64,000 nt of DNA, from assembly GCF_014204525.1 (NCBI RefSeq), contig NZ_JACHLP010000003.1, positions 1 to 64,000 on the forward strand. The letters are read 5' to 3'. This document shows positions 1,301 to 54,196 of the stretch, in pieces. Source of the stretch: Roseateles oligotrophus (lineage in GTDB: Bacteria; Pseudomonadota; Gammaproteobacteria; Burkholderiales; Burkholderiaceae_C). Each line of letters opens with the position of its first letter. Position 1 is the stretch's first letter. Made by a program: the position numbers and the translations under genes. The notes beneath the pieces are model-generated. The model was not told where the DNA came from, did not search any database, and saw nothing but the letters and a program-made list of their open reading frames with translations.

Positions 1301-1318
1301 ATACCAATTCCCTACCAA
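1301..1318 (-). promoter_or_regulatory. Tandem TGGT box (putative NagQ operator), distal to the TonB receptor
   Basis: Read on the minus strand this is TTGGTAG, four bases, TTGGTAT: two direct half-sites 11 bp apart. The same spacing and half-site occur at 1520-1537, 13502-13519 and 13606-13623, and less perfectly at 47486-47503. Binding by the GntR regulator encoded at 11825-12556 is an inference. Confidence 0.5.
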
Positions 1319-1519
1319 GCCCGGACGGCTTCTATTAGTGGTCCTACACCGCAGTAGCAGGCCAGTGAGCAGATTTCAAGGGGGTGGCGGCGCTGCGACA
1401 GCAGGGAAAACACGGCCCCGAAACTGGTAGCAAAGTGGCACTACTGAATCGTATAGTGGCATGGCATTGGTTGCATTCGTATGAAAATTGGGGGCATCAG
1501 GAACACACCATCCCTCGGA

Positions 1520-1537
1520 TTGGTATGAGCCTGGTTC
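1520..1537 (+). promoter_or_regulatory. Tandem TGGT box (putative NagQ operator) upstream of the TonB receptor
   Basis: Plus-strand sequence TTGGTAT, four bases, CTGGTTC, half-sites 11 bp apart, ending 50 bp upstream of the receptor ATG. It shares the layout of the boxes in front of nagK. The position downstream of a -10-like TATAGT (1452-1457) would fit repression. Binding is inferred, not shown. Confidence 0.6.
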
Positions 1538-1587
1538 CGTTAGAAACTGGCCAGTTGCGAGAGTCAAGGCCACATCGAGGAGCATTT

Positions 1588-4257
1588 ATGAAGATCAAAC
1601 CAAGTCCGATCGCTGCCGCGGTCACCATGACGCTACTGAGCGTCGCATTCGCCGCCCAGGCGCAACAAGCAGACAAGGCCCCGGCTGCCAAGTCCGAAGC
1701 CGCTCAGCTCGAACAAGTGGTGGTGACGGGCATCCGTGCTTCGCTGCAGTCGGCCACCAATATCAAGCGCAATTCCACGGCCGTTGTGGATGCCGTGTCG
1801 GCCGAAGATGTGGGCAAGCTGCCTGACTCGGACGTGGGCGAATCCCTGGGCCGTCTGCCCGGCATTACCGTGGGCCGGGCCTTCGGCCAAGGCGCTTCGG
1901 TGTCCGTGCGCGGCTCCGACCCCCAAATGACCTATACCACCCTGAATGGCCAGACCGTGGCCTCGACAGGCTGGTACGACCAGGCGACCGTTGATCGTTC
2001 GTTCAACTACAGCCTGCTGCCCTCCGAATTGATCGGCGGCATGGAGGTCTACAAGTCCTCGCAAGCCGACCTGACCGAAGGCGGTATCGGCGGCACCGTG
2101 ATCGTCAAGACCCGCAAGCCTCTGGACCTGAAGGCCAACACGGTTTTTGGCAGCGTCAAGTTCGGCAAGGGCACGGTCAGCACCGATCTGTCCAAGGACG
2201 TGGCAGGCCTCTACAGCTGGCGCAATGAGGGCAAGACTTTCGGCGTGCTGGTGGCCGGCGCGCGCGAGAACAGCCAGTACATCCGCCGCGGCATTGAGTC
2301 CGACGCAGGCTGGGCCGGCGACGTCGCCCCCGCCACCTTTGTGCAAGATCGCAAACGCTCCGCCATCAACCTGACCCTGCAGGCCAAGCCGACGGACAGC
2401 ATCGAACTGGGCCTGAACTATCTGAGTCTGGAACTGACCGGTGACAACACCAACAGCAATCTGTACCTGTTCACGGGCCAGAACGATCCCAATGCCGAGC
2501 AACCCAACGCCATCACCAACTGCGTGCAGAAGAACGCGGCCGGTCTTTGCGTGAAGGCAGAAGCCGGCGCCAACAACCCCGTCAACACCTTCATCCAAAC
2601 CTGGGCCCGCCAAGGCAAGATGAGCTCCGACAGCCTGGTGCTGAATGGTGCCTTCAAGGGCGACTCCTTCAAGCTCGAAGCCGTGGCCGGTGAAACCAAG
2701 GCCAAGGGCGGTACCAGCCACACCATGAACTACGGCGTGGGCTGGTGGGATGCGGGCCAGAGCCTGCCCAAGTTCAAAGGCACCATCGACGCGACCGGCA
2801 AGCAAATCAGCATTTCCCCCAGCGTTCCCATGGACGTCAGCGTGTCGAACTTGCCCAAGCAATTGGCACCGACCGGCTGGGCCACCGACCAGCAGCAACC
2901 GAATTCGGACAAAGAGCGCTTTGGCCAACTCGACGCCACCTTCGACTTCGACTGGGCAGGCCTGACCGCCTTCAAAACCGGCCTGCGCACGACCAGTCAC
3001 AAGTACGCGCAAAGTGCCTTGCGCGCCAAGTTCAACAAGGACGTGACACTGGGCAACGCCAGCGATCTGTACAGCGGCGGCACCATCAAGATGGGCCCCA
3101 ATGGCTGGGACTTCCCCAAGGCCAATCTGTCCGCCATGGCCGACCTCTATGTGAAGAACACTGCGTCCTGGACCGAGCAGCGCTCCTCCTTCGCCGAAAT
3201 CGAAGAGAGCAACTCGGCCGCCTACGGCATGTTCGAATTCGAGAAGGCGGGCTGGCGCGGTAACTTCGGTCTGCGCTACGTCAAGACCGATGTGAGCTCG
3301 CGCGGCTACAAGTTTGACGGCACCCCCTTGGCCGCCAACGACGTGCCCAATAACGACGGCTGGGGCCGCTCGATCGACGAGCAAAAGGCCAGCTATAGCG
3401 ACTGGCTGCCGAGCCTGAATGCGGCCTACAACATCGACAAGAACTTGGTGCTGCGCATCGCTGCGGCAAAGGCCATCACCCGCCCCAACTTCGAGTACAT
3501 GTTCCAAGCCAAGCAAGCCGGCTACAACGACGACCGCGCCGGCAACCTGTCCATGACCATGGGCACGGTGAGCCTGAAGCCTCAGTCGTCCAAGCAGTTT
3601 GACTTGGGCCTGGAGTACTACTATGGCCGCGGCAATATGGTCTCGGCAGCGGTGTTCCACAAGACCATTGACAACTTCGTGACCGCTCAAGTCCAGACCG
3701 GCGTGGATCTGAAGGTCTATGACCCGCGTTTCCCTGCCGACCGCTGGACGGTCAACAACTACCTGAACGCAGGTGGTGGCAAGATCAACGGTCTTGAGGC
3801 TCAGATCAACCACAGCCTGGACAACGGCTTCGGTTTTGCTGCCAGCTACACCTATGCTGACGCCAAGGCTCCCGGCACCAGCTACCCCGACCGTCTGGCC
3901 TTGTTCACGCAATCGTCCAAGCACACCGCCAATCTGGTGGGCTTCTACGAGAACGAGGTCTACTCGGCACGCGTCGCCTACAACTGGCGCTCCAAGTACA
4001 TGATTCGTGAAACGGGCTACTACAGCTACCGCATGCACGATCCCTATGGTTCCTTGGACGTCAGCGCAGGCTGGAACATCAACAAGAACCTTCGCTTGAG
4101 CCTGGAAGCCGTCAACCTGCTGAAGCAGGATGATGTGCAGTACGGTGCCGCCGATGCGTCGAACACCAATGTCAAGGGCAGCATGCGCGCTGGCTATCCG
4201 GCTTGGTCCTTCATGGGCGAAACCACCTACCGCGTCGGCCTGAGCGCCAAGTTCTGA
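1588..4257 (+). CDS. TonB-dependent receptor, probably for chito-oligosaccharides or GlcNAc
   Basis: Outer-membrane TonB-dependent transporter of 889 residues, of the large carbohydrate-receptor type seen in Xanthomonas and Caulobacter. A signal peptide covers about residues 1-25, ending AAQA. The plug starts at EQVVVTGIRASLQSA and contains the TLNGQTV and GGIGGTVIVKTRKP segments typical of the family. The C-terminal barrel ends in aromatic SAKF. The start was set at 1588 because GAGGAG lies 5 bp upstream and the signal peptide begins there; the longer open frame upstream has no such support. It stands alone on the plus strand and converges on the nag operon. The substrate is inferred from that neighbourhood and from the shared box at 1520-1537, not from the protein itself. 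Confidence 0.88.
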   Translation: MKIKPSPIAAAVTMTLLSVAFAAQAQQADKAPAAKSEAAQLEQVVVTGIRASLQSATNIKRNSTAVVDAVSAEDVGKLPDSDVGESLGRLPGITVGRAFGQGASVSVRGSDPQMTYTTLNGQTVASTGWYDQATVDRSFNYSLLPSELIGGMEVYKSSQADLTEGGIGGTVIVKTRKPLDLKANTVFGSVKFGKGTVSTDLSKDVAGLYSWRNEGKTFGVLVAGARENSQYIRRGIESDAGWAGDVAPATFVQDRKRSAINLTLQAKPTDSIELGLNYLSLELTGDNTNSNLYLFTGQNDPNAEQPNAITNCVQKNAAGLCVKAEAGANNPVNTFIQTWARQGKMSSDSLVLNGAFKGDSFKLEAVAGETKAKGGTSHTMNYGVGWWDAGQSLPKFKGTIDATGKQISISPSVPMDVSVSNLPKQLAPTGWATDQQQPNSDKERFGQLDATFDFDWAGLTAFKTGLRTTSHKYAQSALRAKFNKDVTLGNASDLYSGGTIKMGPNGWDFPKANLSAMADLYVKNTASWTEQRSSFAEIEESNSAAYGMFEFEKAGWRGNFGLRYVKTDVSSRGYKFDGTPLAANDVPNNDGWGRSIDEQKASYSDWLPSLNAAYNIDKNLVLRIAAAKAITRPNFEYMFQAKQAGYNDDRAGNLSMTMGTVSLKPQSSKQFDLGLEYYYGRGNMVSAAVFHKTIDNFVTAQVQTGVDLKVYDPRFPADRWTVNNYLNAGGGKINGLEAQINHSLDNGFGFAASYTYADAKAPGTSYPDRLALFTQSSKHTANLVGFYENEVYSARVAYNWRSKYMIRETGYYSYRMHDPYGSLDVSAGWNINKNLRLSLEAVNLLKQDDVQYGAADASNTNVKGSMRAGYPAWSFMGETTYRVGLSAKF

Positions 4258-4336
4258 TCGAACTGATCGCCGACAACAGAAAGGGCACCCGGTTCAATCC
4301 ATATCAATCTGGCACTGAGCCGAAGGCCTGAAGACA

Positions 4337-4370
4337 ATGCCCTGCAGCGTGAGTTGCAGGGCATTTTTCT
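4337..4370 (+). terminator. Intrinsic terminator of the TonB receptor gene
   Basis: A 10-bp stem ATGCCCTGCA / TGCAGGGCAT with an 8-nt loop, running into a T tract at 4364-4368. It lies 80 bp after the receptor stop codon. Confidence 0.85.
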
Positions 4371-4475
4371 TATGGTTATGGGATACCCAAAAATAGCGTT
4401 GAACGGCCAGGCGACGTAGCCTCGGCACACCCACGACAACGGCGCTGCGCGCTGGTGTTTCTGACGCCTGCAAGC

Positions 4476-4502
4476 AAAAAAACGCCCCGAAATCTCGGGG
4501 CG
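4476..4502 (-). terminator. Intrinsic terminator for the nag operon
   Basis: Read on the minus strand: stem CGCCCCGA / TCGGGGCG with a 4-nt loop, followed by a run of seven T. It lies about 260 bp beyond the nagX stop, so the operon would have a long 3' untranslated tail. Confidence 0.8.
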
Positions 4503-4760
4503 CTTGGCTATCGGCGCGGTCGATCGCGCCCGTTTGGGCTCAAACTGGATGGGGCGCCCTTTGCCAGGGTTCCGCACGATCCGCAAAAGGAGCAGACCCG
4601 CCCGCAGCCCACTATCGCACTCACCGCCGGTGGCAGATCGACGCCGCCGGGTCTTCAGCAGCAGCCATGACGCCAGCCTCCGGCAATGCACCTACCGTGC
4701 TAGCAATAGCCGATGAAGCCAGGCGTTTGGGCCGAGTGCGTGCCGACTTGCGCCCTCTGC

Positions 4761-5831
4761 TCAAACCTTGATGTAAACGCCCCGCTTGTCCAGCACCTTC
4801 ACGATCAAGGCCCACACAGCCACAAAGGCCAGGGCGAAGGCCAGGGATTGGCCATACGGCCCGACCAGAGGCTGCAGCCAGCCAAAGCCCTGGGCGTACA
4901 AGGGCGCCATCAGCCCCAAACCCTCCAGCAAGACGGTACACATCCAGGCCCCCGCATAGGCCGCGATGGCGTTGACGCCGAAAGCGCGACCTACTGGCGG
5001 CAGGCCGCGGCGGTCGATCAGCCAGTGCGCCAGGGCCAGGGCCAGGCAGGCCAGGCCGCCGGTCCACAGCACGAAGGAGGCGGTCCATAACTGCTTGTTG
5101 AGCGGCAGACCCAGCTGGTCCAGCAGCAGGCCGGCCAGGGCAGCCACCGCGCCAAAGGCCAGCAGCGGGCGCAGCGCCGCCCGGCGCAGCCATTCACCCG
5201 CGCGCAGGCCCAACAAGGTCGTGGCCAAGGCGCCCAGGGTACTGACCACGCCTTCCGGATCATGGCCCAGGCCGGTCTGCGCATTCCACTCGTAGCCGAA
5301 GCGGCCCAGCAGCCAGGCATCGGTTTGCGAGGCGATATTGCCCACCTTGTCCAGGCTGCCGCCCCACAGCAGCAGGCCGGCATAAGCCAGCAGCAAAGCG
5401 GCGATCAAGCCCCATTGCGCGCGCTCGCGCAGATAGATGGCGGCCAGGCCGGCCAGCGCAAAACAAATGCCGATGCGCTGCAAGACGCCGGGAAGGCGCA
5501 GCTCCGACTTGCCCATGATCCACCAGGCCAGCAGATGCAGGGCCAGACCCAGCAGCAGGATGCGGCCGGCGCGCTTGAGCACCGTCGCCGCCATCGGCGC
5601 CGCCGGCGCGCCGGCGGCGATGCGCCCCCCCATGGCCAGCGCCAGGGAGACGCCGACGATGAAGAGGAAGAAGGGGAAGATCAGATCGGTGGGCGTGCAG
5701 CCATGCCAGGCCGCATGCTCCAGCGGGTCCATCACATGGCCCCAGTCGCCGGGATTGTTGACGAGCAACATGCCCGCCACCGTCAGGCCCCGCAGCGCAT
5801 CCACCGATGCATAGCGCTTTGTCGAGCTCAT
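4761..5831 (-). CDS. nagX: NagX-type membrane protein, heparan-alpha-glucosaminide acetyltransferase-like
   Basis: Polytopic inner-membrane protein of 356 residues with roughly ten hydrophobic segments. The N-terminal signature RYASVDALRGLTVAGMLLVN and the PFFLFIVGVS segment mark the DUF5009 / HGSNAT-like acyltransferase group. Members in GlcNAc gene clusters are called NagX; their biochemical role (acetylation of an amino sugar across the membrane, or transport) is not firmly settled. The start at 5831 is preceded by AGAGGTG; an upstream in-frame codon would overlap the previous gene. It is the last gene of the nag operon, about 20 bp after the GH16 gene. Confidence 0.82.
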   Translation of the reverse strand: MSSTKRYASVDALRGLTVAGMLLVNNPGDWGHVMDPLEHAAWHGCTPTDLIFPFFLFIVGVSLALAMGGRIAAGAPAAPMAATVLKRAGRILLLGLALHLLAWWIMGKSELRLPGVLQRIGICFALAGLAAIYLRERAQWGLIAALLLAYAGLLLWGGSLDKVGNIASQTDAWLLGRFGYEWNAQTGLGHDPEGVVSTLGALATTLLGLRAGEWLRRAALRPLLAFGAVAALAGLLLDQLGLPLNKQLWTASFVLWTGGLACLALALAHWLIDRRGLPPVGRAFGVNAIAAYAGAWMCTVLLEGLGLMAPLYAQGFGWLQPLVGPYGQSLAFALAFVAVWALIVKVLDKRGVYIKV

Positions 5832-5851
5832 CGCCCACCTCTCACAAAAAC

Positions 5852-6760
5852 TCAAAAATCACAAAGGCTGGGCAAGGCCGGCTGGGCGGCGGGCACCGTA
5901 TCCATCTGCTTGACGCCGGCCGCACGCAAGCGCTTCACCTCGGCCAACACCTGCTTGGGGCTCAGGACCTGATTGCGGGCATGGAAGACCCAGTCCACAT
6001 CTTCCTCGTAGACCCGCGGCTGATCGCTCTTCTCCAGCAGGCCATCGGGCGAGAACCAGAGATTGAAGTTGATGGACATCAGCGAAACCGGGTAGTTGCG
6101 CCCGCCATGCTGGGCCAGCAAGCGGCCGTCCAGATAAAGCCGGGTCTTGCCCCCGGCGATCTGCATCATCAGCACATGCCAGCCATCCAGCGAGCCCATT
6201 TCCTCGTGGCTCTGGTTGAAGGCCTGCCAGGGCTCAAGCTGCACCGTCTGCCAGCTGATGCCGTACAGCCGCGTCTTGTCGCTGCCCCAGCCGCCGTTGG
6301 GCAAGTACTCGAAGTCCAGCTCCGAGAACAAGGGGTCGAAGTCGTGCCTGAGCGGGCTGACGACGTAGAAGGTCTGGATCACCGGGTCGCCATCCAAGCC
6401 GCTCAAGGGCTGGTCGCTGAAGCGCACCCGGGCGGCATAGGTGCCCTCCAGATACTTGCGCGCATGGCAGAGCTGGGCCTGGCGGCTGCCGGCGCCCGTG
6501 CCGTCGGTCTGGGCCCGCATGCGCAAGAGGCGGTTGCCCGGCTGCTGGGGGTCGGCCACCAGGCTGAACTGCTCGGCCGACCACAGCGCGCCGGGCACGC
6601 CCGGGTGGCCGGGCTTGCTGCGGGGGGTCCAGCCGGCCGCGCTCAGGGCCGCCAGATCGGGCTGCGAGAAGTCGTCAAAAAAAACCTCGGCCTGGGCCGG
6701 CAGCATGAAAGACAACAAGGCCGCAGCAGCGGCCTTGCAGCAACGCGAAGACAGAGACAT
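5852..6760 (-). CDS. Secreted glycoside hydrolase family 16 protein
   Basis: Predicted exported glycosidase of 302 residues. A signal peptide covers about residues 1-24 (ends PAQA). The GH16 catalytic motif ExDxE is present as ELDFE (about residues 147-151): nucleophile, assisting Asp and acid/base. A beta-jelly-roll flank (VDWVFHARNQVLSP) is also seen. GH16 enzymes usually cut beta-1,3/1,4-glucans or galactans; a GlcNAc-related substrate would be atypical, so placement inside a nag operon is notable. The ATG at 6760 was chosen; a GTG at 6769 directly abuts the stop of the MFS gene and is an alternative. Cotranscribed with the upstream MFS gene and nagX. Confidence 0.83.
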   Translation of the reverse strand: MSLSSRCCKAAAAALLSFMLPAQAEVFFDDFSQPDLAALSAAGWTPRSKPGHPGVPGALWSAEQFSLVADPQQPGNRLLRMRAQTDGTGAGSRQAQLCHARKYLEGTYAARVRFSDQPLSGLDGDPVIQTFYVVSPLRHDFDPLFSELDFEYLPNGGWGSDKTRLYGISWQTVQLEPWQAFNQSHEEMGSLDGWHVLMMQIAGGKTRLYLDGRLLAQHGGRNYPVSLMSINFNLWFSPDGLLEKSDQPRVYEEDVDWVFHARNQVLSPKQVLAEVKRLRAAGVKQMDTVPAAQPALPSLCDF

Positions 6761-6769
6761 GCAGAACAC

Positions 6770-8092
6770 TCAGCTTGAAGAGGCCGCCGCCGCAGGGTCG
6801 GCGGCCGCGGGTTCGGCCGCCTGGGGCTTGGGCATCTTGACGAAGAACAGCAGCACAAACACCGGCAGGCCGCACAGAATCGTCCAGAGGAAGAACTGCT
6901 CATAGCCCATGGCCAGCTGGATATCGCCGCTGATGGTCTTGGAAAAGATGAAGCCCAGCTGCATGATGCCCGTGCCCAGCGCGTAGTGCGCGGTGGAGAA
7001 CTTGCCCGGCGCCAGCACCTGCATGATGAACAGAATCATGCCGACAAAGCCGAATCCATAACCAAACATCTCCACGGTGACGGCGGCGCCGATGTGGAAC
7101 AGGTCCGGCGGCATGGTGGAGGCCAGGTAATAGAAGGTCAGATTGGGCACCAGCATGGCCAGCAGCAGGATGGGCATGGCCCGCTTCAGGTTCAGCCAGG
7201 AGGTGAAGTAGCCGCCGGCAATGCTGCCGGCCAGAAAAGCCGCCGTGCCGAAAGTGCCGTAGATGCCGCCCACCTGTTCGGTCGTCAGGCCCAGGCCGCC
7301 CTTATCGCGGGCCTCGATCAGGAACAGCGGCCCGATGGTCTGCACCTGGCCCTCTGCAAAGCGGAACAGCACGATGAACAGAATCATCAGCCAGATGCCG
7401 GGCTTTTTCAGCAGGTCGGCAATCACCTCTTGCAAGGTGGCGGCCACGCTGGCGGCGCTGACCTTGCCCGCCGCCGCATTCAGCACATCGGGCAGGGCGC
7501 GGGCGTTGTAGGCGGCCAGGCCAGCCAGCAGCAGGGCCAGGGCCGCGAAGATCACGCTCCAGGCATTGAACACGCCCAGGCTTTTTTCCATATGGCCGGC
7601 CAACACCAGCAGGCCGCCCAGGGTGAGGAATTTGGAAGCGTTGAAGAAGGCACCCTGCCAGCCCGCATAGGCCGCCTGCTGCTTGCTGTCCAGCGAGGCG
7701 AGGTAAAGCCCGTCGCAGGCGATGTCGTGCGTGGCGGCGGCGTAGGCGATCAGGAACAGCACCGCGATGCTGGCAGCGAAATACATCGGTACTTGCACGG
7801 CCAGAGCCATCAGCGCCAAGCCCGCCGCGCCGGTGAACTGCATGGCCACGACCACGCGCTTCTTGCTGCGCGCCAGCTCCAGAAAAGGGCTCCACAGCGG
7901 CTTGACGGCCCAGGCCAGGCCCAAGAGGCCGGTCCAGCGGGCGATCTGGTCGTTCGGCACGCCCATATTCTTGAACATCAGGCCGGCCAGCAGCATGACG
8001 ACGAAGAACTGCATGCCCTGCACAAAGTACAGGCTGGGCACCCAGCTGATGGGTGAGCGCGGCGCGCGGGCCGGCGTTTGAACTTGGGACAT
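6770..8092 (-). CDS. MFS permease of the GlcNAc operon
   Basis: A 440-residue inner-membrane protein with about twelve hydrophobic helices, resembling AmpG-like major facilitator permeases (N-terminal SLYFVQGMQFFVVMLLAGLMF, then KPLWSPFLE). The C-terminus is an Ala/Pro-rich tail. Located between the GH3 and GH16 genes, it is the only obvious inner-membrane carrier in the operon, since no phosphotransferase genes are present. It probably imports GlcNAc, chitobiose or a related sugar; a muropeptide-like substrate is the alternative suggested by the AmpG resemblance. The substrate is inferred from context. Confidence 0.8.
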   Translation of the reverse strand: MSQVQTPARAPRSPISWVPSLYFVQGMQFFVVMLLAGLMFKNMGVPNDQIARWTGLLGLAWAVKPLWSPFLELARSKKRVVVAMQFTGAAGLALMALAVQVPMYFAASIAVLFLIAYAAATHDIACDGLYLASLDSKQQAAYAGWQGAFFNASKFLTLGGLLVLAGHMEKSLGVFNAWSVIFAALALLLAGLAAYNARALPDVLNAAAGKVSAASVAATLQEVIADLLKKPGIWLMILFIVLFRFAEGQVQTIGPLFLIEARDKGGLGLTTEQVGGIYGTFGTAAFLAGSIAGGYFTSWLNLKRAMPILLLAMLVPNLTFYYLASTMPPDLFHIGAAVTVEMFGYGFGFVGMILFIMQVLAPGKFSTAHYALGTGIMQLGFIFSKTISGDIQLAMGYEQFFLWTILCGLPVFVLLFFVKMPKPQAAEPAAADPAAAASSS

Positions 8093-8124
8093 GGGCGTTT
8101 CCTTGTGCGGGGCTCAGGCGAGCT

Positions 8125-9609
8125 TCAAAGGCTGACGGGCGACTGCGCCGTGGCCTGGGCTCGGCCCTCCAGCCAGGCCTGCAAGCCGGCCAGCGCACCC
8201 TCGGCATAACCCCAGGTGACGACGGTCGGTGCTTTCACATCCAGGGCCTGGAAAGGATTCCACAGCACCAGATGCAGATCGGGCTGCCAGCCCGCCGCCG
8301 CGCCGTTGTAGCGGGCACGGTGGTTGGAGGCCAGCACATTGAGGCGGCCATCCAGCGGCACCTGGGCCCAGTCGAGCGCATCGATGCTGTCCAGGGCCAC
8401 AAACTCCACATCGCCGAAGCCCGCGAACAGGCCGCGCACCAGCTGGCCCGAGGGGCCGGCCTCGGAGACGCCGTCGCTGTCCACGCTGGCCTGGGTGTAG
8501 ACGCGCAGGGGCCGGTCCAGCGCCGGCGCCTGCGCGCCATGCAGGGCGGCCAGACCGGCGGACCAGGCGGCGCGCATCAGCTGGTCGTCCAGCTGGCGTT
8601 GCTCGAACTCGTAGTCGTCGTGACGCACCGGGTAGGCATTGGCCAGGGCGTCCAGGCGAGCACGGGCGCGCTGGCCCTGTTCGGCCGTCAACTCGCCCTT
8701 GGCAAAGGCCTCGTGCAAGGCCTGGATGGCGGCGGCCTGCTCCTGCAGATCGCCCTGGGCCAGAATCATGTCGGCGCCGGCCTGGATGGCCATCACGGCG
8801 GCGCGGGCGTAGCCATAGCGCTCGTAGATGGCCTTCATCATCAGCGCGTCGGTGATGACCACGCCCTCATAGCCCCACTCGCGGCGCAGGATGTCGCCGA
8901 GGATCTTGGTCGACAAGGTGGCCGGATGCTCGGGGTCGATCTGCGGGTAGACGATGTGGGCCGTCATCACAGCGGGCGCTTCATCACGCAGGTCCTTGAA
9001 GGGGCGCAGCTCCAGCGCGTCCAGCTCGGCGCGGCTCTTGTCCACCGTCGGCAGGGCGAGGTGCGAATCCACATGGGTGTCGCCATGGCCGGGGAAATGC
9101 TTGACGCAGCAGGCCACGCCCTCGGCCAGGGAGCCGCGCATCCAGGCGCCGGCCAAACGCGTCACCTCATCGGCATCCTCGGAGAAGCTGCGCTCGGCGA
9201 TGACGGGGTTGGCCGGGTTGTTATTGATGTCCAGCACCGGCGCGAAGTTCCAGTTGATGCCGATGGAGCGCAGGCCGCGCGCCACGGCCGCACCGACCTG
9301 CTCGGACAGGGCCGCATCACCGGCGGCGCCCAAGGCCATGGCCGAGGGGGCTTGCGGCAGAAAGGTGGCGCGCACGACCGAGCCGCCCTCTTGATCGAGG
9401 CCGATCAGGGCTTGCGGGCCCATCACATTGCGCAGATCGGCGGTGAGCTGCTTGACCTCGGCTTCGGTGCCCAGGTTTTTGCGGAACAGGCAGACGGCAC
9501 GCACCTTGTTGACGCGCAGAAACTCGGCCGTCGCAAAGTCCAGGCTCTTGCCCTGGATGTCGACCATGACCAGCTGGCCCGGGTGAAAGCCGGAATGAAA
9601 ATCGCTCAT
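8125..9609 (-). CDS. GH3 beta-N-acetylhexosaminidase
   Basis: A 494-residue NagZ-like glycoside hydrolase family 3 enzyme that should release terminal GlcNAc from chitobiose, chito-oligomers or muropeptides. The signature KHFPGHGDTHVDSH (from about residue 170) contains the mobile-loop His/Asp pair of the N-acetylglucosaminidase subgroup. ITDALMM (about 252-258) carries the nucleophile Asp. No signal peptide is seen, so it is likely cytoplasmic. The protein is longer than NagZ (about 340 residues) by a C-terminal domain from about residue 345. It lies 20 bp after the deaminase gene. Confidence 0.9.
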   Translation of the reverse strand: MSDFHSGFHPGQLVMVDIQGKSLDFATAEFLRVNKVRAVCLFRKNLGTEAEVKQLTADLRNVMGPQALIGLDQEGGSVVRATFLPQAPSAMALGAAGDAALSEQVGAAVARGLRSIGINWNFAPVLDINNNPANPVIAERSFSEDADEVTRLAGAWMRGSLAEGVACCVKHFPGHGDTHVDSHLALPTVDKSRAELDALELRPFKDLRDEAPAVMTAHIVYPQIDPEHPATLSTKILGDILRREWGYEGVVITDALMMKAIYERYGYARAAVMAIQAGADMILAQGDLQEQAAAIQALHEAFAKGELTAEQGQRARARLDALANAYPVRHDDYEFEQRQLDDQLMRAAWSAGLAALHGAQAPALDRPLRVYTQASVDSDGVSEAGPSGQLVRGLFAGFGDVEFVALDSIDALDWAQVPLDGRLNVLASNHRARYNGAAAGWQPDLHLVLWNPFQALDVKAPTVVTWGYAEGALAGLQAWLEGRAQATAQSPVSL

Positions 9610-9629
9610 GAACAGGTACTCGGGCTAAA

Positions 9630-10640
9630 TCAATGCGTCTTGGTGACCTTGGCCAGATGGGGCGGCTGATCGGGGTTGCGGCCGCGCGCGCGGGCCAGGG
9701 CCTCGACCATGGGGTAGAAGCTCTGCACGACGGCGATGGCGTCCAGGTCCTCATTGCCGGTGCAGGCCAGGGGCAGCTCGGCACCGGGCGTGCCGGCCGG
9801 TGCAGCCAGCAGCACGCGGGCGCCACGGCCACGCATCTCCTCGGCCAGGGCCAGCAGGCCGGCCTGGGCCGGGCCACGCGGCGCGAACACCAGCATGGGG
9901 TAGCCCTCCTCGATCAAGGCCATGGGGCCATGCTTGACCTCGGCGCCCGAGAAGGCCTCGGCCTGGATGCCGCAGGTCTCCTTGAACTTCAGCGCCGCTT
10001 CCTGGGCGATCGCCAGGCCGGTGCCGCGGCCGATCACGAACAGGCGGTTGGCCGGGGCCAGCACGTCCACGGCCACGTCCCAGCGCTGGGCCGCGGCCTG
10101 GCTCAGGGCGTCGGGCAGTTGCTGCAGGGCGGCTTGCAGGTCTTCGTCCTCCCCCCAGGCGGCCACCACACGGGCGCCGGCCACCAGCTGGGCGATATAG
10201 CTCTTGGTTGCCGCCACGCTGGTCTCGGGCCCGGCGTGCAGCGGGAAGACGTATTGCGCCGCCTCGGCCAGGGGCGAGCCCTCGGCATTCACAAAGGCCA
10301 CGGTGCGGGCTCCGCCGGCACGGAAGAACTGGGTCGGCGCCACCAGGTCCGGGCTCTGGCCGGACTGCGAGAAGGCCAGGGACACCAGACCCTCGCAGGC
10401 GATCTTGCTTTGATACAGCGTCACCAGGGACATGGGCAGAGAGGTGACCAGACGGCCCATGCGGGCCATCATCAGATAGGCCATGTAGTGGGCGGCGTGG
10501 TCGGAGCTGCCGCGGGCCACGGTCAGCAGCGAGGTGGGCGGCTGCTCGCGCAGGGCGGCGCCCAATTCGGCATAGGCCGATTGGTCGGCGGCCAGCTGGC
10601 GCGCCACCACATCGGGGGCGCTGAGGGCTTCGGCCAGCAT
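9630..10640 (-). CDS. nagB-II: Glucosamine-6-phosphate deaminase, SIS type (NagB-II)
   Basis: Tandem SIS-domain protein of 336 residues, like the isomerase half of GlmS, converting glucosamine-6-phosphate to fructose-6-phosphate and ammonia. The first SIS motif is LLTVARGSSDHAAHYMAYL and the second LFVIGRGTGLAIAQEAALKFKE. The C-terminal HLAKVTKTH resembles the GlmS tail. No glutaminase domain is present, which fits a deaminase rather than a synthase. The start is ambiguous: ATG at 10640, or TTG at 10682, which overlaps the nagA end by 14 nt and has AGGAG 6 bp upstream, giving 350 residues. It completes the NagK-NagA-NagB route encoded by its neighbours. Confidence 0.9.
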   Translation of the reverse strand: MLAEALSAPDVVARQLAADQSAYAELGAALREQPPTSLLTVARGSSDHAAHYMAYLMMARMGRLVTSLPMSLVTLYQSKIACEGLVSLAFSQSGQSPDLVAPTQFFRAGGARTVAFVNAEGSPLAEAAQYVFPLHAGPETSVAATKSYIAQLVAGARVVAAWGEDEDLQAALQQLPDALSQAAAQRWDVAVDVLAPANRLFVIGRGTGLAIAQEAALKFKETCGIQAEAFSGAEVKHGPMALIEEGYPMLVFAPRGPAQAGLLALAEEMRGRGARVLLAAPAGTPGAELPLACTGNEDLDAIAVVQSFYPMVEALARARGRNPDQPPHLAKVTKTH

Positions 10641-10668
10641 GCGCGTCTTCAAATTCGCCAACGAGGAA

Positions 10669-11799
10669 TCAGGCAAGGTCAATTTCTTCTCCTTCAACAA
10701 GCACCCGCTGCAACTGCAGCTCACGGTCCAAGACCACCAAATCAGCCCAAGCACCGACCGTCAACTGACCCCGATCACTCAAACCCATGTATTCCGCCGC
10801 GTTGCTGGAGACGCGCCGCGAGGCGTCTGCGATCTCCAGCCCCAGGCCGACCAGATTGCGCAAGGCCTGGTCCATCGTCAGCGTGCTGCCCGCCAGCGTG
10901 CCGTCGGGCAGGCGCACGCCACCCATGCACTTGGTGACGGTGTGGCGGCCCAGCTTGTAGTCGCCGTCCGGCTGGCCGGCCGCGGCCGTCGAGTCGGTGA
11001 CGCAGAACATGCAGGGAATGGCCCGCAAGGCCACGCGGATGGCGCCCGGGTGCACATGCAGCAGGTCCGGAATGATCTCGGCATAACGCGCATGGGCCAG
11101 GGCGGCGCCCACCATGCCGGGCTCGCGATGGTGCAGGCCGGTCATGGCATTGAACAAATGGGTGAAGCCTTGGGCACCATGGGCCAGGGCGGCCACGCCG
11201 TCCTCGTACGTGCCCAGAGTGTGGCCGATCTGCACCTGGTAGCCGGCCGCGCGCAGCTCGGTGATCAGCGCAAGATTGCCCGGCAGCTCGGGCGCCAGCG
11301 TGATCAGCTTGATGGGGGCCAGGGCATTGAGCTCGCTAACCTCCTGCATGGCCGCGGGCTTGGCGAAGTCGGGCTGCGCGCCCAGCTTGCCGGGGTTGAT
11401 GTAAGGGCCTTCCAGATGCACGCCCAGCACGCGCGCACCTTGGCGGTCGCGCTCGCGGCAGACGGGGCCCAGGGCGGCCAGGGCGCTGCGGATCTCGTCC
11501 ATCGGCGCCGTCATCGTGGTGGCCAACATCGAGGTGGTGCCGTGGCGCACATGCAGCTTGGAGATCTCGCGGGCGGCCTCACCGCCTTCCATGGTGTCGT
11601 GACCGCCGCCGCCGTGCACATGCACGTCGATGAAGCCGGGCAGCACGATGGGCAGGGCCGGCTGATCATGCCTGACCTGGGCTTCCGACACCGGCTCGCC
11701 GCTGATGGCTGTGATGCGCCCTGCGCTTTGGCTGAGGCGTCCGCGTACAAAGCCTTGCGGCGTCAGCACATAGCCATCAATGTGTTGGAAATCCCCCAT
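10669..11799 (-). CDS. nagA: N-acetylglucosamine-6-phosphate deacetylase
   Basis: Cytoplasmic amidohydrolase-fold enzyme of 376 residues, the usual NagA length. It deacetylates GlcNAc-6-phosphate. The metal-site motif DVHVHGGGGHDTMEG lies around residues 56-70, IGHTLGTY and THLFNAMTGLHHREPG supply further ligands, and the catalytic Asp lies in CVTDSTAAAGQPDG. The start is supported by GC-rich purine sequence upstream and by the normal N-terminus. It begins 25 bp after nagQ and its end overlaps a possible TTG start of the deaminase gene. Confidence 0.96.
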   Translation of the reverse strand: MGDFQHIDGYVLTPQGFVRGRLSQSAGRITAISGEPVSEAQVRHDQPALPIVLPGFIDVHVHGGGGHDTMEGGEAAREISKLHVRHGTTSMLATTMTAPMDEIRSALAALGPVCRERDRQGARVLGVHLEGPYINPGKLGAQPDFAKPAAMQEVSELNALAPIKLITLAPELPGNLALITELRAAGYQVQIGHTLGTYEDGVAALAHGAQGFTHLFNAMTGLHHREPGMVGAALAHARYAEIIPDLLHVHPGAIRVALRAIPCMFCVTDSTAAAGQPDGDYKLGRHTVTKCMGGVRLPDGTLAGSTLTMDQALRNLVGLGLEIADASRRVSSNAAEYMGLSDRGQLTVGAWADLVVLDRELQLQRVLVEGEEIDLA

Positions 11800-11824
11800 C
11801 CCTGCCCTGCTCCTCTTGTCTTGT

Positions 11825-12556
11825 TCAGTCTTCGCGCCGCATCTCGGCGACGAAGTCGTAGTAATCGCTGCGGCAATAGGAATGCGTCAGCTCCACCGCA
11901 TGACCCGATTCCAGATAGCCCACCCGGGTGATGAACAGCACCGCCTGCCCCACCGGCACCTCCAGCAAGCCGGCCAGCTTGGCATCGGCATTGATGGCGC
12001 GGATGTGTTGCAGCGCGCGCACCGGCGCGCCACCCAGGGTTTGCAGATGCTCGTAAAGCGAGGCCTCGACGGCCTGCGGATCGGGCAGCACCGCCTCGGG
12101 CAGCACGCTGACCTCGTAAGCCATCACCACCGTGTCGGCCAGGCGCAGGCGCTCCAGGCGCGCCACGCGGCCGCCGGTGGAGAGGCCCAGGCTCAGCTGC
12201 TCATCGGGCGCGGCCGGCGTGAAGCCGCGGGCCAGCCAGCGCGAGCTGGGGCGGAAACCCCGCTGCTGCAACTCTTCCGAGAAGCTGGTCAGGCGCGACA
12301 GCGGCTGCTCCAGCTTGGGCGCGATGTAATTGCCCGAACCGCGCTTGCGCACAATCATGCCCTGCTCGACCAGACGGTCTATGGCCTTGCGCGCGGTCAC
12401 GCGCGAGATCTCCAGTTGCTCCGACAGCACCCGCTCCGAAGGCAGGGCCTCGTCGGCCAGGAACAGGCCCTCACGGATGGCCTGGGCCAGCTTTTGCGCC
12501 AGCTGCATGTACAGCGGCGAGGCGGCTTCGTGGTCCGGCTTGAATTTGAATGGCAT
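11825..12556 (-). CDS. nagQ: GntR/HutC-family regulator of the nag genes (NagQ-like)
   Basis: A 243-residue repressor with an N-terminal winged helix (residues about 10-75; LPSERVLSEQLEISRVTARKA is the HTH core) and a C-terminal UTRA effector domain, the HutC subfamily architecture. Family members in GlcNAc clusters sense GlcNAc-6-phosphate or glucosamine-6-phosphate. ATG 12556 was preferred; a TTG at 12565 overlaps the nagK stop. It is encoded within the operon it probably controls. The tandem TGGT boxes at 1301, 1520, 13502, 13606 and perhaps 47486 are its likely operators (inference). Confidence 0.9.
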   Translation of the reverse strand: MPFKFKPDHEAASPLYMQLAQKLAQAIREGLFLADEALPSERVLSEQLEISRVTARKAIDRLVEQGMIVRKRGSGNYIAPKLEQPLSRLTSFSEELQQRGFRPSSRWLARGFTPAAPDEQLSLGLSTGGRVARLERLRLADTVVMAYEVSVLPEAVLPDPQAVEASLYEHLQTLGGAPVRALQHIRAINADAKLAGLLEVPVGQAVLFITRVGYLESGHAVELTHSYCRSDYYDFVAEMRRED

Positions 12557-12561
12557 GGCGG

Positions 12562-13497
12562 TCAATTTCCCAATCGTTGGAGGACGCTGCGAATCAGATG
12601 CAGCGCGCCGTCGGCGGAATCACCCTGGGGCGAAACGCAACGGCCGGCCATGGTGCCTGAGAAATTGGGAGCCAGACGCAGGGCGATGCTGCCGCACAAG
12701 GCCAGGGGCAGCTCGGCCGCCGGGTCCAGCGCCAGCGCCAGCCGCTCCAGCTCGGCCACCGCCTCTTGCACAAAGCCGACCGCCACCGGGTCGATGTTGT
12801 CGCCCTCGGCATGGTCGAACACCAGCCGGGCCAGGCTGGCATAAGCATGCTGACCGGCCTGGGCACACCAGGCCAGGATGGGCTCGCGCTCCGCGCCCAC
12901 GACCGCAAACACCGCGCGGGCCAGCGGGCCCACCGGCACCCGGCCGTCCTGCGCCTGATGGGCGTGGCGCATGGCCTTCAGGCCCAGCCAGGCACCGCTG
13001 CCTTCGTCGCCACAAATCCAGCCCCAGCCGCTGATGCAGGCGCGCGAGCCGTCGCGGCGCAAAACCTCGCCCACCGTGCCGGTACCGGCCGCCACCACGG
13101 CGCCGGGCCGGCCGCCATGGGCGCCCAGGACGGTGGTGAAACCGTCGCCATCCAGCGCCAGCAAGGCAAAGCCGGGCTGCAAGGCCAGAAAAGCCTCGAC
13201 CTGGGCGGGCACGCTGGCCCCGGACAAACCCAGGCCGATGGCGCAGTGCGACCAGTCCAGTGCCTCCACCCCGGCCAGCGCCTGCGCCTGGCGCGCGGCC
13301 AGCACAATATGGGCCCAGGCCTGCTCGGCCCCCTGCCCCAGGGCGGACGGCCCGGCCTCACCCTGGCCGAGGATGCGGCCGCTCAGATCGCTGAGCCGCA
13401 CCCGTGTCCCGGTGCCGCCGCCATCAACGCCCAAGAAAAAGCGCACCGAGGCCTTGGCAGATTCCGCACCGAGTGGACAAAGAGTGGTCGTATTCAT
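12562..13497 (-). CDS. nagK: N-acetylglucosamine kinase, BadF/BadG ATPase family
   Basis: ASKHA-fold kinase of 311 residues that should phosphorylate imported GlcNAc at C6. The phosphate-1 motif FFLGVDGGGTGTRVRLSD lies near the N-terminus and the adenosine-side glycine motif AAGTGTVGEVLRR around residue 135. GWGWICGDEGSGAWLG is typical of the family. The ATG at 13497 has no ribosome-binding site, and the likely -10 lies only 10 bp upstream, so the message would be leaderless. A GTG at 13446 with AAGG 5 bp upstream would start right at the kinase domain (294 residues) and may be the true start. First gene of the operon. Confidence 0.88.
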   Translation of the reverse strand: MNTTTLCPLGAESAKASVRFFLGVDGGGTGTRVRLSDLSGRILGQGEAGPSALGQGAEQAWAHIVLAARQAQALAGVEALDWSHCAIGLGLSGASVPAQVEAFLALQPGFALLALDGDGFTTVLGAHGGRPGAVVAAGTGTVGEVLRRDGSRACISGWGWICGDEGSGAWLGLKAMRHAHQAQDGRVPVGPLARAVFAVVGAEREPILAWCAQAGQHAYASLARLVFDHAEGDNIDPVAVGFVQEAVAELERLALALDPAAELPLALCGSIALRLAPNFSGTMAGRCVSPQGDSADGALHLIRSVLQRLGN

Positions 13498-13501
13498 ATT
13501 A

Positions 13502-13519
13502 ATACCAGTCTAGTACCAA
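13502..13519 (-). promoter_or_regulatory. Tandem TGGT box overlapping the nagK promoter
   Basis: Minus-strand TTGGTAC, four bases, CTGGTAT; half-sites 11 bp apart. It overlaps the spacer and -10 of the candidate nagK promoter and ends 5 bp before the ATG, an ideal repressor position. Confidence 0.65.
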
Positions 13520-13536
13520 ATTAAAGCCGCCGTCAA
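13507..13536 (-). promoter_or_regulatory. Candidate promoter of the nag operon
   Basis: On the minus strand, TTGACG (13531-13536) and TAGACT (13507-13512) are separated by 18 bp. Transcription would start around 13500, almost at the first nagK ATG. Confidence 0.5.
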
Positions 13537-13605
13537 TGCGGGTTCTACCCTTGTTGCACATTCATTGCAGCCCGATTAAGTGACAAAGACGAGCCCGGAA
13601 CGGCC

Positions 13606-13623
13606 ATACCAATTTAGAACCAA
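13606..13623 (-). promoter_or_regulatory. Second tandem TGGT box upstream of nagK
   Basis: Minus-strand TTGGTTC, four bases, TTGGTAT; half-sites 11 bp apart, 104 bp upstream of the first box. A pair of boxes this far apart could allow looping; the receptor gene also has a second, distal box. Confidence 0.55.
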
Positions 13624-53350: not shown

Positions 53351-54196
53351 TCATACCAGGCGCGGCCACCACATCAAGGCGCTCGCCGCCGCAATACCGC
53401 CCGCCGTGGCCAGCAGCAGCAGGGCCAGGGTGGCGCTGGCCGCCCATTGCTGCGCGGGCCGCTGGCTGGCCTGGGCCCACAGCACGCCTTGCAAGACGGC
53501 CAAGGGCAGCAAGGTCTGGGCAAAACTCAGGAAGGTGAGAAAAGGGCCCTCAAAAGTCTTGGGATCAAAGCCGACCGGCCCCTGGTTCACCACCAGCCAC
53601 AGCATCAGCCCGATGCGGAAGAACCAGACGCCGCCCACCACCAGAAAGAGGCGCAGCATCCAGCGCCGATGCTCGGCCATGCGCCGCTGGCGGGCCGCCC
53701 GCCAGCCCAACCAGGCAAAAACCAAGATGAACAAGGCGTTCAGGCTGATGCCCAGATGCTGGCCGAGGCCGCCCAGGCCCACACCCTCGCGCGTCCACAC
53801 CATCAGCAGCCCGCCCAGGCTCAGGATCAGGGCAGACAAGAGGTAGAAGCGGCCGTTCCAGCGATGCAGGCCCGGTGCCTTGTGCCGCAAGCGCGGCCAC
53901 AGCTGCAGGCCGCCGCCCAACAGAATGGTGATGGTGAACAGCAAATGCCCCGCCAGCACGCTATTGCCCCAGGTGTGGCCGGCCCGCCAGCCATGGGGCA
54001 AGACCTGGTTCCACAGCTCGGGCTGGCCGGCCAGGGCGTGCCGGCCGTAAAAGCCCAGCACGTAGATCACAAAGACCAGCTGACCCAGCAAGGCCAGCAG
54101 CAGCCAGGCGGCCGAGACCCGCGCCAGCGTGCGGCCGGCAAGGCCCGTGCCGAGCCACGCGAGTGCGGGGGAATGGGAAGTCATGGCAGCTTGCAT
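53351..54196 (-). CDS. DUF2306 membrane protein
   Basis: A 281-residue integral membrane protein with seven hydrophobic segments. It contains the DUF2306-like block HTWGNSVLAGHLLFTITILLGGGLQLWPRLR and KAPGLHRWNGRFYLLSALI with conserved His. Family role unknown, possibly heme or quinone-related given the paired His. Start at ATG 54196 (a second ATG at 54184). It ends 14 bp before the kinase gene start and may be cotranscribed with it. Confidence 0.82.
   Translation of the reverse strand: MQAAMTSHSPALAWLGTGLAGRTLARVSAAWLLLALLGQLVFVIYVLGFYGRHALAGQPELWNQVLPHGWRAGHTWGNSVLAGHLLFTITILLGGGLQLWPRLRHKAPGLHRWNGRFYLLSALILSLGGLLMVWTREGVGLGGLGQHLGISLNALFILVFAWLGWRAARQRRMAEHRRWMLRLFLVVGGVWFFRIGLMLWLVVNQGPVGFDPKTFEGPFLTFLSFAQTLLPLAVLQGVLWAQASQRPAQQWAASATLALLLLATAGGIAAASALMWWPRLV

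Follow-up and report, generated by a model that had tools for sequence, protein, structure and literature searches.

The 64,000-nucleotide stretch of Roseateles oligotrophus DNA analysed here (contig NZ_JACHLP010000003.1, positions 1 to 64,000; hereafter the window) carries a TonB-dependent receptor gene and, convergent to it, an operon for N-acetylglucosamine (GlcNAc) catabolism, the nag operon. Both are preceded by 18 bp boxes with two TGGT half-sites, which raises the question of which protein recognizes these boxes and whether it links the two units. The sequence-only reading of this DNA had placed two boxes before the receptor gene and two before nagK, the first gene of the operon, and had proposed that the GntR protein encoded in the operon represses both units. 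All four boxes were confirmed (Table 1), with direct half-sites 11 bp apart in each on inspection of the sequence, and comparison with relatives supports the operon-encoded protein, NagQ, as the likely regulator of both units. The equal standing given to the four boxes was not borne out, as three of them are supported and the one at 1520 is not. The boxes, their conservation, their overlap with promoters and their enrichment before target genes were all computed from the genomes. With a probability that we put at roughly 0.88, the boxes are operators of NagQ, a HutC-type GntR repressor encoded second in the nag operon; at that same level NagQ would bind them, act as a repressor there and respond to the inducer named below.

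In the window, YTGGT-N6-YTGGT matched five times (the four boxes and a site at 53710) against a mean of 0.20 (standard deviation 0.45), and none of 100 shuffled windows reached five matches. The narrower YTGGTWN5YTGGTWY matched six times in the whole 5.34 Mb genome, four of these being the window boxes, and its reversed control three times; the two remaining exact matches are unproven, one (C1:939879) lying before a PEP-CTERM/ice-binding-like gene and the other (C5:283943) having no identified target. The window boxes match yTGGT-N6-yTGGT, and the complete TGGTATT unit only in part. Their half-sites being direct, none of the four has the inverted GT-N4-AC core, the HutC palindrome of NagR/DasR type. 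The shuffles, the strict 11 bp spacing and the position of conserved boxes outside the promoter hexamers make it exceedingly improbable that the boxes are chance repeats or mere promoter elements, a view that can draw on the nagK-proximal box, which holds the −10, so that part of its conservation is that of the promoter.

Two sets of relatives were compared. A NagQ match at E ≤ 1e-40 was present in 35 of 200 genomes sampled from the family, and the 32 with a match of at least 70% identity (33 genes, one genome having two) were analysed, G076, G139 and G143 being excluded for matches of only 43–45%. The second set comprised the best 80 of 262 named loci and the window (81 in all), from which L150, L207, L219 and L220 (no nagK match) and L210 (contig starting at nagK) were dropped; as the 76 readable loci are not independent, 51 were left after removal of promoters at least 90% alike, and counts for these are given after the full counts. 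Many genomes are common to both sets. Boxes were scored out of 13 fixed letters.

The nagK-proximal box was found in all 76 readable Roseateles-group loci by an expression with TGGT, TA and TGG at set places, which lost no readable locus. TTGAC starts 16–17 nt before it in 73 of 76 loci (48 of 51; exceptions L204, L206 and L226), which places the hexamer inside the box (TAAACT in 27 loci, TAGAGT in 23, TAGACT in 18, others in 8) 17–18 nt from the −35 and hence makes it the −10. The overlap of a box with the nagK −10, noted from the sequence alone, holds in the window as a consensus match (TTGACG, 18 nt, TAGACT inside the box). An in-frame ATG follows 2–5 nt past the proximal box in 50 of 76 loci (32 of 51), and in L226 lies at −2 only. 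In these 50 loci and L226, none of AGGA, GGAG, GAGG and AAGG occurs in the 13 nt before the box-adjacent ATG, and the frame from it is stop-free to the GVDGG motif in 50 of the 51, L200 having AVDGG. Differences between near relatives fall most often on third codon positions (137:118:207 over 38 pairs), the bias being modest. The first ATG lies 14–20 nt past the box in 18 of the 76 loci, and in the other seven at 7 nt, at 54–64 nt or not among the listed starts. If transcription starts 6–8 nt past the −10, a leader of about 0–4 nt would result; with the −10 inside the proximal box and the ATG just beyond it, the nagK mRNA is predicted to be probably leaderless. An internal GTG was rejected as the nagK start because relatives have other codons at this place (ATA in L066 and L067, GTA in L070), and the ATG after the box is therefore preferred. 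Nothing on a leaderless nagK together with N-acetylglucosamine was found in the open-licence literature, which is no claim of its absence from print.

Further boxes accompany this promoter in the relatives. A distal box on the same strand, scoring at least 12, lies 67–175 bp from the proximal one in 36 of 76 loci, that of the window being the box at 13606. A tandem box in inverted orientation abuts the −35, 34–35 bp from the proximal box, with a score of at least 10 in 50 of 76 loci (29 of 51), as in AAACCAGTGGAATACCAA-TTGAC of L069, and in 24 of these 50 TGGA or TGGC takes the place of TGGT in its second half. It is decayed in the window (score 6) and scores 7 in L147 and 8 in L148; in L149 it scores 10 but lacks intact TGG half-sites. 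Upstream of nagK in the 51 non-redundant loci, same-strand TGGT pairs are spaced by 11 bp 94 times, every locus contributing at least one through the way loci were found, and by any other distance between 5 and 30 bp at most 10 times each.

In whole-genome scans, YTGGTN5AYTGGTAT was found in 26 of the 32 NagQ-positive genomes (66 sites, 4 in the control) vs 5 of 32 NagQ-negative genomes of the family (6 sites, 2 in the control). The sequence-only reading had named random occurrence, with no enrichment before GlcNAc or chitin genes, as evidence that would tell against it; the strict pattern is enriched across the NagQ-positive genomes, but with a mismatch allowed the own genome by itself has no surplus of matches over the control. 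Seventeen sites lie away from the nag locus, and 11 of them are upstream of four GH18 chitinase genes, one GH19 gene (start uncertain), one lytic polysaccharide monooxygenase gene, three receptor genes (that of L138 called by likeness to L136) and two tonB-exbB-exbD operons, the boxes of the latter at 379 and 513 bp. The other six comprise two before FAD/BBE oxidase genes and four (L125, L129, L131 and L139) without a clear target. In L135 and L137 (genus g28) a full-score NagQ-type box directly precedes a gene for an FAD-dependent (BBE) oxidase, possibly an oligosaccharide oxidase.

The TonB-like protein, present in 29 of 32 NagQ-positive vs 2 of 32 NagQ-negative genomes, matched no Pfam or NCBIfam model; its name rests on a proline-rich sequence and on neighbours resembling ExbB/TolQ and ExbD/TolR below the model cut-offs. 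At 25 of 30 tonB loci scanned (five partial or weak matches being omitted), an upstream box scored at least 11 in 12 loci vs 1.2 expected (in opposite orientation in L232 and L233) and at least 12 in five vs 0.14 expected, the expectation being taken from masked nag loci, a background of mostly coding DNA. With a looser expression, set post hoc, the tonB boxes read mostly ACCANTAARATACCA and lie 366–532 bp upstream in 12 of 25 loci. In the own genome the tonB box lies at about C1:444,642–444,659 (score 11), and a one-mismatch box precedes a GH19 chitinase gene at C6.

For the receptor promoter, 18 receptor genes were taken (the window and 17 relatives, with at least 50% identity and an alignable start), of which 17 were aligned, L090 being dropped as too diverged. 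The most conserved element is a block at 1399–1475, which had been overlooked by the sequence-only reading, as had the inverted box next to the −35 of nagK in relatives, the probable lack of a leader on the nagK mRNA and the targets elsewhere. Mean column conservation over the 17 sequences was 0.83 for the block, 0.915 for 1424–1441 and 0.925 for 1456–1473 within it, and for the 1301 box 0.74 vs 0.42 for 1319–1398. The block, CTGGTAGCAAAGTGGCAC...GTATAGTGGCATGGCATTGGTTG, consists of two 11 bp TGG pairs at a pair-to-pair distance of 32 bp; TATAGT is the likely −10. A search expression for it found 22 of the collected loci, including receptors only ~30% identical (L069, L075 and L089). In 19 of these 22 an antisense box scoring at least 10 is situated upstream, its centre 85–154 bp from that of the promoter-block box, and in 13 of the 22 it has the full score. 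The block is degenerate in L074, and L090 retains the first pair only. Looping by helical phasing was considered and rejected, since the box-to-block distances of the 19 loci have no 10–11.5 bp period (Rayleigh p 0.08–0.94); likewise rejected was a sigma-54 promoter, as TGGCAT...TTGGT, read against the sigma-54 consensus, has no GC at −12 either in the window or in the relatives examined, although L089 fits the spacing. The predicted receptor mRNA leader of ~120 nt (1476–1587) has conserved stretches such as GGCCACATCGAGGAGC and could hold a regulatory RNA element.

There is a substantial minority chance that NagQ acts at the nagK boxes while another factor, perhaps an activator, binds this block at 1399–1475, so that receptor and operon would not be controlled alike. 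Such a factor would suit the inner half-sites, which read TGGC or TGGA rather than TGGT, the lack of a TTGACA-like −35 at ~17 nt and the additional conserved stretch CAGCAGGGAAAACACG upstream; however, the block shares the 11 bp tandem geometry of the NagQ boxes, the same TGGA/TGGC second halves occur in the 24 of 50 inverted nagK boxes, a NagQ-type box stands upstream at the 19 of 22 loci, and the first pair, TGGTANCNAANTGGNNCTA, has one exact match in the own genome. That the boxes as a whole belong to a different protein, for example NagR of LacI type or another HutC paralogue, is improbable, although NagR (LacI) is described in published excerpts as controlling GlcNAc genes elsewhere, in Xanthomonas jointly with NagQ, and several relatives do have a second HutC paralogue (43–48% identity). 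LacI operators are palindromes, no further regulator was recognized among the operon proteins scanned, the own genome has a single NagQ-like match at E ≤ 1e-40, and the motif tracks the presence of NagQ across genomes.

Several observations nevertheless weigh against NagQ as the reader of these boxes. Six of the 32 NagQ-positive genomes have no strict match, and the scan pattern was chosen after the nag loci had been seen, so that matches at these loci arise partly by construction; moreover, the NagQ-positive and NagQ-negative genomes differ by clade, and the latter include many smaller ones. In the own genome, TTGGTWN5YTGGTWY with one mismatch matched 27 times vs 34 in the control, without enrichment, and weak single sites there are therefore not claimed, except the GH19 chitinase site (C6:70199) and the tonB site, to both of which relatives lend some support. 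The 1520 box occurs in only 2 of the 17 aligned promoters, the sole complete copies being those of the window and G144, and is about as conserved as its surroundings (0.65 vs 0.62 for 1476–1575 in mean column conservation), which is why it was set apart from the other three. A class-wide search of 369 genomes gave NagQ matches at E ≤ 1e-40 in four genomes other than the own, all from outside the family. Two of these nagQ loci, L264 (59% identical) and L267 (47%), have exact TGGTATT-N4-TGGTATT boxes before nagQ-nagA-nagB or nagQ-nagB-nagA; in the stretches examined at the other two, L265 and L266, there is no TGGT-N7-TGGT box, and in that of L265 no other nag gene.

The kind of system is already known, as tandem TGGTATT operators have been published for NagQ, and the addition made here is how the promoters of this clade are built, some of which may be in print. 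Excerpts of two papers (PMC5343134, PMC4494728) describe NagQ as a regulator of the GntR family, one of them placing it in the HutC subfamily, that occurs in alpha-, beta- and some gammaproteobacteria and has a tandem or direct TGGTATT repeat as operator; for HutC proteins the rule is given as a palindrome in which 4 nt separate GT from AC. The TGGTATT-N4-TGGTATT form that the sequence-only reading gave for Xanthomonas NagQ agrees with these tandem repeats and with L264 and L267. Direct half-sites are indeed unusual for a GntR dimer, as had been remarked, yet excerpts report an exception for NagQ, FarR and NanR. Shared with the NagQ regulon of Xanthomonas and other Proteobacteria are the kind of regulator, targets in uptake and at nagA and nagB, and the tandem TGGTATT operator, whereas the kinase-first operon, the probably leaderless nagK, the receptor promoter block, the second box that many relatives have in inverted orientation at the −35 and the candidate target tonB-exbBD are unlike that regulon as far as these excerpts describe it. 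Escherichia coli NanR belongs to the FadR subfamily. According to an excerpt, it is a GntR protein binding direct repeats of GGTATA units cooperatively, which is alike, but it has three repeats, one dimer on each, and a 32-residue N-terminal extension for cooperativity (PMC8012715), whereas ~17 residues precede the GntR domain of NagQ. Solved relatives of the window NagQ are YvoA/NagR of Bacillus subtilis, the closest (E 8e-36), and Streptomyces DasR (3e-25), no NagQ structure being among the PDB sequence matches. Both are HutC-type proteins of amino-sugar pathways with a TGGT half-site in their operators; they differ from the case here in that HutC operators are, in the excerpts, palindromic as a rule, whereas these boxes are tandem. 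GlcNAc-6-phosphate is cited as an inducer common to several species in an excerpt of a study whose own regulator is LacI-type (PMC13055268). The term NagQ box together with TonB-dependent receptor, chitin or Roseateles gave nothing among the matches listed in the open-licence literature, from which absence is not claimed.

The nag operon runs nagK, nagQ, nagA, nagB-II type, GH3, AmpG-like MFS transporter, a protein without Pfam match and NagX-like gene, nagQ thus sitting alongside nagA, nagB, kinase and transporter genes. The MFS transporter is by inference a probable GlcNAc permease, and the real start of the deaminase lies probably inside the open reading frame. The protein without Pfam match is encoded in most relatives' nag operons (49–86% identity). 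By NagQ, the closest named relative among the matches listed is Paucibacter sp. KBW04 (98%), followed by Roseateles, Mitsuaria, Pelomonas, Rhizobacter and others. In L083, L086, L088 and L090, from other genera, a second HutC-type regulator, sharing 44–48% identity with NagQ, is encoded close to the nag operon and a receptor gene. Genes for tRNA-Thr, tRNA-Gly and tRNA-Tyr (601–1010) adjoin the receptor promoter, with a tuf-like reading frame beyond, a setting that seems to recur at L136 and L138. Elsewhere, TTGGTATTAATTTGGTAA stands amid direct and inverted TTGGTATT-like units in L093 at ~9395 (own genome C7:230394), upstream of a molybdopterin oxidoreductase gene.

Table 1. Boxes, promoter elements and genes of the receptor and nag loci in window coordinates.
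Feature	Position	Strand	Remark
NagQ-type tandem box TTGGTAGGGAATTGGTAT	1301–1318	−	upstream of receptor promoter, antisense to receptor gene
Conserved upstream part of receptor promoter block, CAGCAGGGAAAACACG...	1399–1423	+	
Candidate tandem box CTGGTAGCAAAGTGGCAC	1424–1441	+	over −35 region of receptor promoter
TATAGT, predicted receptor −10	1452–1457	+	no good −35 seen; missing from general promoter scan
Second TGG-N8-TGG pair GTGGCATGGCATTGGTTG	1456–1473	+	over −10/start region
Tandem box TTGGTATGAGCCTGGTTC	1520–1537	+	within predicted 5' leader of receptor gene; lineage-specific or chance
TonB-dependent receptor, TIGR01782 type	1588–4254	+	passes model cut-off
NagX-like membrane protein	4761–5855	−	115 bits, below model cut-off of 480
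Operon protein without Pfam match	5852–6769	−	
MFS transporter, AmpG-like	6770–8092	−	AmpG model below cut-off
GH3 beta-N-acetylhexosaminidase	8125–9609	−	NF003740 above cut-off
Glucosamine-6-phosphate deaminase, NagB-II type	9630–10754	−	276 bits, below cut-off of 430
nagA, GlcNAc-6-phosphate deacetylase	10669–11799	−	TIGR00221 above cut-off
nagQ, GntR/UTRA (HutC-type) regulator	11825–12565	−	PF00392 and PF07702 above cut-offs
nagK, BadF-type GlcNAc kinase	12562–13497	−	NagK model below cut-off; predicted start ATG 13495–13497
nagK-proximal NagQ-type box TTGGTACTAGACTGGTAT	13502–13519	−	contains −10
nagK −10 TAGACT	13507–13512	−	inside proximal box
nagK −35 TTGACG	13531–13536	−	
nagK-distal NagQ-type box TTGGTTCTAAATTGGTAT	13606–13623	−	

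In the absence of amino sugar, NagQ bound to the tandem TGGT half-sites would cover the −10 and start of nagK, and with it its own gene, nagQ, and would also occupy sites around the outer-membrane receptor promoter. NagK would make GlcNAc-6-phosphate from incoming GlcNAc, GlcNAc-6-phosphate would probably release NagQ, and this release would induce uptake together with the operon for catabolism and the genes for chitin degradation. A more elaborate arrangement is tentative and rather unlikely to hold as a whole: composite operators in this clade, with two tandem boxes pointing apart around the −35/−10 of a nagK promoter taken to be leaderless and two further pairs in a block of their own within the receptor promoter, might place NagQ dimers head-to-tail on the DNA and co-control the kinase, the receptor, TonB-ExbB-ExbD and chitinases. 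Such a head-to-tail assembly would differ from the HutC relatives that bind palindromes. For the question of how a HutC regulator reads direct repeats while its near relatives read palindromes, these promoters are natural test DNA: across 76 loci (51 non-redundant) they offer from one to three tandem boxes in direct or inverted orientation. For the chitin-degrading bacteria of the Roseateles group, the prediction is that the receptor, its TonB energizer and chitinases would be switched together with GlcNAc catabolism.

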